DNA from: Ichthyobacteriaceae bacterium
GTDB taxonomy: Bacteria > Bacteroidota > Bacteroidia > Flavobacteriales > JADGDT01
Direction of reading: 5' to 3'
DNA length: 33,535 bases
NCBI GenBank assembly: GCA_016744755.1
Contig: JADGDT010000027.1
Span: 1-33,535 of the forward strand
In this document: positions 3,491-5,200 of the stretch, one piece after another
Layout: each line of letters begins with the position of its first letter
Numbering within the stretch: the stretch's first letter is position 1
Notes under the pieces: model-generated
What the model saw: the letters and a program-made list of their open reading frames with translations, nothing else
What the model was told of the DNA's origin: nothing
The model's database searches: none
Position numbers and translations under genes: made by a program

Positions 3491-4093
3491 ATGAAAAAAT
3501 ATAGACTGCTTCTCCTATTTTTATTATTAGGAGTATTCTCATTTGCACAGAACTCAAGTCTGAATATTCAAGTAGGAACAGGAGCTCCTTATTTATTTGA
3601 ATCAAAGGATCAAACTGTAGATATTAATTACTCATCAACTTTTACTTTTCAATCTGGTTGGATTTACCAACCAAAGGACTTTTATTTTGATTTACATATT
3701 AATCTACAGTACTTAAACAGTAAAATAAAAGGAACAAATTGGGAGTCTTTTAATTTAATAGATGGTGAGATTACTTCACTTACAACTTCTATCCTTTTAG
3801 AGAAAATGACAAATAACAAAAAATTGAATTTTGGATATTCATTTGGATTAGGGTTTACTGTTGAGAATCTTATTGAAGATTTAAATTTTAGAATTAAGGA
3901 AGAAAGGAATTTTATGACTTTTACAATAGAACCTATTATTTCTTATAGTTTATCTGAGAAAGTTTCCTTAAGATTAAGTCCCAAACTCTTATGGTTAGAT
4001 CCAATAAAATCATTTGAATCTGCCGACCACTATTATATTGGAGGAGAAGATATAACAATACTATTACAAGTTGGAATAAATATGAAACTATAA
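3491..4093 (+). CDS. small secreted protein, probable outer-membrane beta-barrel
   Basis: No specific family recognised. The 200-residue product starts with a clear type I signal peptide (MKKYRLLLLFLLLGVFSFAQ, likely cleaved after FAQ). The remainder alternates polar and hydrophobic/aromatic residues in short strands separated by turns (for example FQSGWIYQPKDFYFDLHINLQYLNS and KLNFGYSFGLGFTVENL), and ends with a strand-like ILLQVGINMKL. This is the look of the small Bacteroidota porin-like barrels (about 8 strands). It probably shares a transcript with the serine hydrolase. Expression is plausible, function unknown. Confidence 0.7.
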   Translation: MKKYRLLLLFLLLGVFSFAQNSSLNIQVGTGAPYLFESKDQTVDINYSSTFTFQSGWIYQPKDFYFDLHINLQYLNSKIKGTNWESFNLIDGEITSLTTSILLEKMTNNKKLNFGYSFGLGFTVENLIEDLNFRIKEERNFMTFTIEPIISYSLSEKVSLRLSPKLLWLDPIKSFESADHYYIGGEDITILLQVGINMKL

Positions 4094-4115
4094 AATATTT
4101 ACTAATAAAGGCGAT

Positions 4116-4223
4116 GTAGAATTTATAATTAAGATTCTACACTGAATGTTGTTGAATAATCGTCACCAACCACAATATGACGAGTATTCTAAATTAGAAG
4201 TTCTACACAAATAATGGTAGAAC
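4116..4223. repeat. hairpin-rich intergenic repeat, copy A
   Basis: Three inverted repeats lie in a row after the end of the small barrel gene: GTAGAAT/ATTCTAC (4116-4122 and 4134-4140), GAATAATCGTCA/TGACGAGTATTC (4154-4165 and 4178-4189, one mismatch) and GTTCTAC/GTAGAAC (4200-4206 and 4217-4223). The outer parts match the repeat at 8422-8734 in order and orientation (TGTTGTTGAATAATCGTC against TGTTGTGGAACAATCGTC; ATTCTAAATTAGAAGTTCTACACAAATAA against the equivalent bases near 8697-8725). The central loop here is only 12 bases and contains CCAACCAC, the complement of the GTGGTTGG unit that is tandemly repeated in copy B. No T-run follows, so it is not a typical intrinsic terminator. Confidence 0.65.
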
Positions 4224-4414
4224 AATAATTAAAAAAAATGCACTCAAGTTTATTAACTTTAAATTATATTTTTATAGGAAACAGAATTGTTTTTGGTATT
4301 TATACAATATTTTTGAAAAATTTTAAATGTACCCTACTTAAAAATCACATAGACCTCGCAGTTTTACATATATGTGAGTTTCGGATATGAGTTCAAGCTA
4401 AATGGTATATTCTC
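4224..4414. other. AT-rich spacer, no gene seen
   Basis: Between the repeat and the palindrome there is about 190 bp of mostly AT-rich DNA with a slightly GC-richer patch near 4345-4395 (CCTCGCAG, then ACATATATGTG, GTTTCGG). No reading frame with coding character, RNA gene or promoter was recognised. Confidence 0.4.
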
Positions 4415-4602
4415 TTATTACCTTAAATCCGCAAGGGTTTTCGTTGCGAAAAGCTGAAATGTGCTTTGGCATTGGTGTAGCGCAGAAAAAAGTAACGCAA
4501 ACATAGCCTTAGCTATGGTGAGTAAGTTTTTTTGAGAATTGCCAATGAGAATGTGCAGTACAGCTTTGTAGTAGATATACCTTTGCGGATTTAAGGTATT
4601 AT
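4415..4602. mobile_element. 180-bp palindromic MITE-like element (4419-4598) with flanking TTAT repeats
   Basis: The ends are inverted repeats: TACCTTAAATCCGCAA at 4419-4434 against its exact complement at 4583-4598. The two halves stay related inward: AAAGCTG, CATTGG and the A6/T6 runs occur in register, and the middle is the hairpin CATAGC-CTTA-GCTATG (4502-4517), whose centre is within 1-2 bases of the centre of the whole element. The sequence is flanked by TTAT at 4415-4418 and 4599-4602, a possible 4-bp target duplication; because the ends begin with TA, a TA duplication is an equally good reading. No open frame is inside. This fits a non-autonomous miniature inverted-repeat element or a very long structured hairpin; I cannot name an IS family. 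It stands directly upstream of the exonuclease gene. Confidence 0.65.
4578..4585 (+). promoter_or_regulatory. candidate -7 element inside the right end of the palindrome
   Basis: TACCTTTG fits TAnnTTTG and faces the exonuclease gene, with 66 bases to its ATG. The left arm of the element has one base fewer at this point (CCTTGCGG rather than CCTTTGCGG when read outward), so only the right end offers the box. No convincing -33 element lies 17-21 bases upstream. Confidence 0.3.
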
Positions 4603-4651
4603 AAAAAATAACGAAACATTAATAAACAATTCAACACAAACTAACAATTTA

Positions 4652-5200
4652 ATGAAAATACTTATTATAGATATTGAAACTACAGGTTTTTTAAATGCTG
4701 GAGGTTACATAGTAGAGGTAGGAATAGTTGAGTTGAATTTATCTAATGGACAGAAGAAAGTTGTTTACGATAAAGTTACTCACGAGACAGGGATAACTAG
4801 GGAAGATGTAGAAAACTCTTGGATAGTCTCTAATTCTGATCTTACAGTAGAAGATGTTAGAACCTCTAGACGATTAAATTTTTTATTACCTGAAATCCAA
4901 GTATTGATAGATAAATATCCATTTGGAGCAACTGCATTCAATAGATCCTTTGATTTCGATTTTTTAGAAAGCCGAGGAATACGTTTCAATAAAAAACTTC
5001 CTTGTCCAATGTTGTTATCAACCAATGTTTGTAAACTATCAGGTAATTACGGGAAATATAAATGGCCAAAAGTAGAAGAAGCATACGACCATTTCTATCC
5101 AAACAATAGCTATGTAGAAAAACACCGTGGAGCCGATGATGCTTTCCACGAAGCAGACATAGTTTATGAACTACATAAAATGGGGTTGTTTAAAATTTAG
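4652..5200 (+). CDS. DEDDh-family 3'-5' exonuclease (DnaQ/RNase T-like)
   Basis: Stand-alone exonuclease domain of the DnaQ/RNase T superfamily, 182 residues, expected to remove nucleotides from 3' ends using two metal ions. The four catalytic positions are visible: D7 and E9 in DIETTG (Exo I), D101 in NRSFDFDFL (Exo II), and H158 with D163 in HRGADDA (Exo III, H-x4-D, defining the DEDDh subgroup). It has no polymerase or helicase fusion, so a role as DNA polymerase III epsilon subunit is not implied; it could act in DNA repair or RNA trimming. The gene is expressed from just after the palindromic element and ends tail-to-tail with the minus-strand lipoprotein gene, overlapping it by four bases. 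Start chosen at the ATG that begins directly with the Exo I strand. Confidence 0.88.
   Translation: MKILIIDIETTGFLNAGGYIVEVGIVELNLSNGQKKVVYDKVTHETGITREDVENSWIVSNSDLTVEDVRTSRRLNFLLPEIQVLIDKYPFGATAFNRSFDFDFLESRGIRFNKKLPCPMLLSTNVCKLSGNYGKYKWPKVEEAYDHFYPNNSYVEKHRGADDAFHEADIVYELHKMGLFKI

Follow-up and report, generated by a model that had tools for sequence, protein, structure and literature searches.

A palindromic repeat of Bacteroidota genomes is very probably a non-autonomous MITE with IS1380-family ends

The palindrome and its boundaries

The window, i.e., the whole stretch of 33,535 nucleotides analysed, is contig 18 (C18) of a 3.64-Mb, 242-contig genome (G000) of an Ichthyobacteriaceae bacterium. 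At 4421–4596 it carries a palindromic element of 176 bp that runs from CC to GG (CCTTAAATCCGCAA...TTGCGGATTTAAGG) and is separated by 55 bp from a downstream exonuclease gene (RNase_T, 4652–5200). The left terminal inverted repeat, CCTTAAATCCGCAA, is found on the plus strand at 4421–4434 and the right one, TTGCGGATTTAAGG, on the minus strand at 4583–4596, and the element is flanked by two copies of the target duplication TATTA (4416–4420 and 4597–4601). The initial annotation had described a palindrome of 180 bp at 4419–4598 with perfect 16-bp inverted ends. These ends are indeed perfect, 4419–4434 being TACCTTAAATCCGCAA and 4583–4598 its reverse complement, but the element proper is shorter, because the outer T and A belong to the duplication. 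Similarly, the TTAT reported on both sides is present as an out-of-register part of TATTA, and the suggested duplication of TA or TTAT has to be replaced by one of 5 bp.

The apex hairpin CATAGC-CTTA-GCTATG was correctly placed at the centre; it occupies 4502–4517, about 1 base from the midpoint, and is enclosed in an apical core (4491–4525) that reads TACTCACC-stem-loop-TTGCGT on the minus strand and is common to foldback elements with other ends. Interior pairing of the arms is imperfect. When folded as RNA, as the initial annotation had proposed, positions 4405–4612 gave -76 kcal/mol, compared to -44.07 ± 4.3 (z -7.4) for 200 dinucleotide shuffles, none of which was as low, and the fold is thus far beyond chance. 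Plasmid and phage collections contained no match.

The left flank of the palindrome is itself a dispersed repeat (window positions 4118–4273), with approximately 35 matches in the same genome to the stretch around 4163–4273 (CAATATGACGAGTATTCTAAATTAGAAGTTCTACACAAATAATGGTAGAAC), and a second repeat block lies close by.

Dispersed copies and an element-free ortholog

The same genome has at least eight full-length copies of the palindrome at unrelated loci, with different flanks at each, in addition to fragments; relatives were found in MAGs of other Bacteroidota. Full-length copies are 99–100% identical in C18, C89, C242, and C193, and approximately 84% identical in C195, C236, and C39, while the full-length C224 copy has an insertion at its apex. 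Partial copies are present in C153, C121, and C10. The apical insert, seen in the copies of L008 (copy at 1505–1723, G000:C224) and L009, is approximately 41 bp or more and ends in ..ACAAGCACTATGGCAATAAG; that of L009 is longer and partly unrelated.

An occupied locus and an element-free one could be compared for the C89 copy. Its insertion locus, which we take to be ptb-buk-like, has an ortholog in G002, a genome of the same genus, where the intergenic gap is 19 bp and contains no element. The G002 locus was rejected as an exact empty site and is regarded as an element-free ortholog, because the C89 locus holds another repeat as well as the palindrome. This neighbor (right of 1680 in L002; approximately 1463–1632 in L283) belongs to a second foldback family, whose ends are of the ...AATTGGTA type, whose apex is CCGTAGCTATGCTATGC, and which has about 20 or more matches in G002 (L229–L245). 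Yet another repeated block, GTAGTCGAAA..CTATAGCAACA.TGAT..TAATAGAC, is found near several palindrome copies, in the flanks of L006, L007, and L009, which suggests insertion into or beside older repeats.

The strong fold and the site upstream of the exonuclease gene, together with covariation like that of structured RNAs (see below), would also suit a cis-regulatory or non-coding RNA structure, such as a terminator, riboswitch, or sRNA, conserved at the locus. This is made very unlikely by copies that are almost identical and lie at unrelated loci between exact target duplications, and by the mixed gene context of the copies (22 co-directional, 13 convergent, and 8 divergent). Moreover, Rfam covariance models gave no match at E ≤ 1 in window positions 3900–5200, and only sub-threshold or unrelated matches to relatives of the palindrome. 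A terminator role was rejected on the same mixed context, and a short minus-strand match to hairpin-plus-T is the apex itself. The palindrome may nevertheless be transcribed as a passenger.

Target duplication

The comparison of target duplications covered 35 distinct short elements that end as the palindrome does, taken from its own genome and from Bacteroidota MAGs. The 5-bp duplication is exact in 23 of them and has at most one mismatch in 31, whereas shuffling of left and right flanks among elements (5000 times) gave on average 2.5 exact 5-bp duplications and never more than 9. No excess was found at 3, 4, 6, or 7 bp. An apparent 3-bp duplication was rejected, having arisen from counting the outer A/T as part of the element; the CC...GG register gives 5 bp. 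Most duplications have the form T....A (TNNNA), and every exact one ends in A. In the IS1380 family, 5-bp direct repeats have been reported for IS1247 (PMC3281130).

IS1380-family transposons with the same ends

The genome collection was searched for the end as a 15-mer, and only paired ends were counted, because lone matches are uninformative: in 257 Gb, counting both strands, chance alone should give about 480, and of those outside Bacteroidota many have no partner end. Among the loci matched are ones where this end bounds a gene for an IS1380-family transposase (NF033539; E 4.7e-82 for L096), which supplies both the family that the initial annotation had not recognised and the kind of transposon whose matching ends it had considered necessary for mobilisation in trans. 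L096 and L122 are intact ISs with the transposase gene between CCTTAA[A/T]TCCGCAA ends, specifically CCTTAATTCCGCAA / CCTTAAATCCGCAA, and with 5-bp duplications TTAAT and TTAGT, respectively. The cleanest case is L331, an IS of 1678 bp with perfect CCTTAAATCCGCAA ends and the duplication GTTAA, which occurs in MAG G809 together with the palindromic MITE copies L058 and L089. IS1380 transposase matches were detected in only four of the 12 element-bearing genomes checked, plus G210, with perfect ends in G809 only.

Over 14–15 bp, the ends of the palindrome are identical to the termini of L331 and, in L096 and L122, to the right terminus, and no likeness to any of the three was found beyond the 14–16-bp terminal repeat. 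Since no subterminal sequence is in common past this point, a simple internal deletion of the ISs examined was rejected as the origin of the MITE. These ISs are approximately 1.6–1.7 kb long and contain a transposase gene, in contrast to the palindrome, which has none. A separate derivative of 426 bp (L125, 1198–1623), retaining transposase residues 306–395, is an IS1380 internal deletion and is intermediate between IS and MITE.

No IS1380 transposase gene was found among the assembled contigs of the palindrome's own genome. In G001, of the same genus, a transposase remnant (residues 9–172) lies directly behind a matching left end, and this end is 83% identical to sequences in which contigs C11, C27, C84, and C200 of the palindrome's genome break, approximately 98 bp inside. 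We infer that this genome has a multicopy IS1380 element which was collapsed by the assembler. Two other contigs break inside a different end type, CCTTAAATCCGCAGATATAATAGACATTATATTCATGG (L039 at the start of G000:C113, L046 at the end of G000:C114), and this end type probably marks either a second collapsed IS or the far end of the first. Other candidate partners were rejected: the 2-kb elements L120 and L083 have no intact transposase inside, and the 15 IS1380 copies of G013 have different ends (TTAACCC...).

Proposed nature and mobilisation of the element

Because of its dispersed copies, exact duplications, and element-free ortholog, and because intact transposons have the same ends and duplication length, the palindrome is, on sequence grounds, very probably a non-autonomous MITE of the IS1380 family mobilised in trans by an IS1380-family transposase. 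The initial annotation, which had suggested a MITE consisting almost wholly of inverted repeat and a search for further copies, IS ends, and empty sites, is supported in this respect. The alternative of a substrate for another mobile system, i.e., REP/RAYT (Y1 transposase), integron attC, or IS630-like insertion at TA, would be consistent with the mismatches in the hairpin and with related ATACCAAAT-ended foldbacks at TA-like sites. It is extremely unlikely given the 5-bp duplications and the CC...GG ends identical to those of IS1380 ISs. REP/RAYT palindromes are short, GTAG-tagged, and without target duplication, whereas the present element is 176 bp long, is duplicated at its target, and has a variable apex stem with no fixed GTAG.

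As a MITE of the IS1380 family, the element would be recognised at its 14-bp ends, CCTTAAATCCGCAA, by a DDE transposase supplied in trans, and would be excised or copied as a 176-bp unit. Insertion would take place at A+T-rich 5-bp sites, mostly TNNNA and usually intergenic, with duplication of the 5 bp. The transposase that moves the palindrome is presumably that of the ISs with the same ends, and an intact copy presumably exists in the same strain. The interior, which does not derive from the ISs examined, is a foldback module whose conserved apical core covaries, and this core may aid hairpin formation during mobilisation or tolerance by the host.

Covariation in the foldback interior

An alignment was made of 17 relatives, most of them 174–200 bp long, from the palindrome's genome and several Bacteroidota MAGs. 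All 17 have a common foldback, 94.5% of cells are paired, and 29 of the 60 pairs have changes on both sides. In the apex stem, CATAGC/GCTATG covaries with CGTATC/GATACG and CGTAGC/GCTACG in relatives. The covariation score was 0.397, compared to 0.202 in shuffles that ignore the relatedness of the sequences (none of 500 as high). When the partner was slid along, pairing did not exceed 41%, a control that leans in favor of the structure, which came from the same alignment. As judged from these comparisons, the foldback is maintained by covariation across the phylum Bacteroidota.

Template switching at quasi-palindromes is a known mutational process, and the covariation may have arisen by such arm-to-arm homogenisation and not by selection on the hairpin, a proposal restricted to the interior and consistent with the MITE reading. 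Double changes, which favor homogenisation, include transversion pair swaps of the apex stem, e.g., G-C to T-A. On the other hand, a G.A mismatch beside the apex (alignment columns 79/108) persists in every one of the 17 sequences, although homogenisation would be likely to remove it, and in the least diverged copy pairs single-side changes come first, which fits stepwise change. We consider homogenisation plausible but lean somewhat against it; both it and selection on the hairpin could explain the covarying interior.

Ends and core as separate modules

The covariance model of the palindrome family also matched foldbacks of 157–178 bp that have other ends (ACCGTAAATAGACAG, ATACCAAATAT, ATACGAATTAC, GAGCTAAATTG, and TGGTTCAATTC) and a similar apical core at the centre. 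With strict filters, the full model matched 12 of 395 genomes of the class and the core model 6 of 395 genomes of the phylum. In local alignments to the palindrome family, the interiors of most other-ended foldbacks scored above 300 shuffles, and those of five elements that combine the same ends with other interiors had no such similarity. The core thus occurs with different ends, and the same ends occur without the core; therefore, ends and core assort independently. The flanks of ATACCAAAT-type elements are AT..AT, which suggests that these insert at TA and hence by another transposase.

Unrelated hairpin interiors between the same IS1380 ends, of GGTTGCAGGTGAAAACACCTGCAACC and CATCGTATCA types, were seen in L075, L139, L141, and L157 (one MAG), in L133, L102, and L161, and in L118, with 5-bp duplications that are mostly exact or near-exact.

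The apical core TACTCRCC-stem-YTGYG with its fixed mismatches could be a functional DNA or RNA module that promotes the spread or host tolerance of foldbacks and was for this reason captured by several Bacteroidota transposon end types, among them IS1380-type CC ends with 5-bp duplications and TA-flanked ATACCAAAT ends. This proposal is speculative and rather unlikely to be correct; if true, the core would be a common helper structure of otherwise unrelated MITEs.

Relation to known elements and significance

Prokaryotic MITEs of comparable kind include QMITE2 of Coxiella, which forms a stable stem-loop in transcripts (PMC10969869), and the IS982-derived MITE of Cardinium, an endosymbiont in Bacteroidota (PMC9769881). 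The palindrome is similar to both in being short and non-coding, with terminal and direct repeats, dispersed copies, and, presumably, mobilisation by a parental IS, and differs from both in IS family and in its interior, a foldback of phylum-wide occurrence whose core is conserved, and not a defective parental IS. Porphyromonas gingivalis, also in Bacteroidota, has a MITE with an internal minisatellite (PMC4596501), which is set apart by description only from the long foldback found here. No paper joining IS1380, MITE, and Bacteroidetes, or miniature inverted-repeat, foldback, and Bacteroidetes, was found in the open-access literature. The palindrome represents a new MITE family of an already known kind, with IS-derived ends and stable stem-loops, in which the conserved foldback core is unusual.

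A palindromic repeat of many Bacteroidota genomes is hereby assigned a transposase family, exact boundaries, and a duplication length. To judge from contigs that end approximately 98 bp inside related IS ends and from the MITE ends located near many contig ends of MAGs, elements of this kind seem also to break assemblies. The independent assortment of core and ends makes selection on the hairpin structure of a MITE testable.
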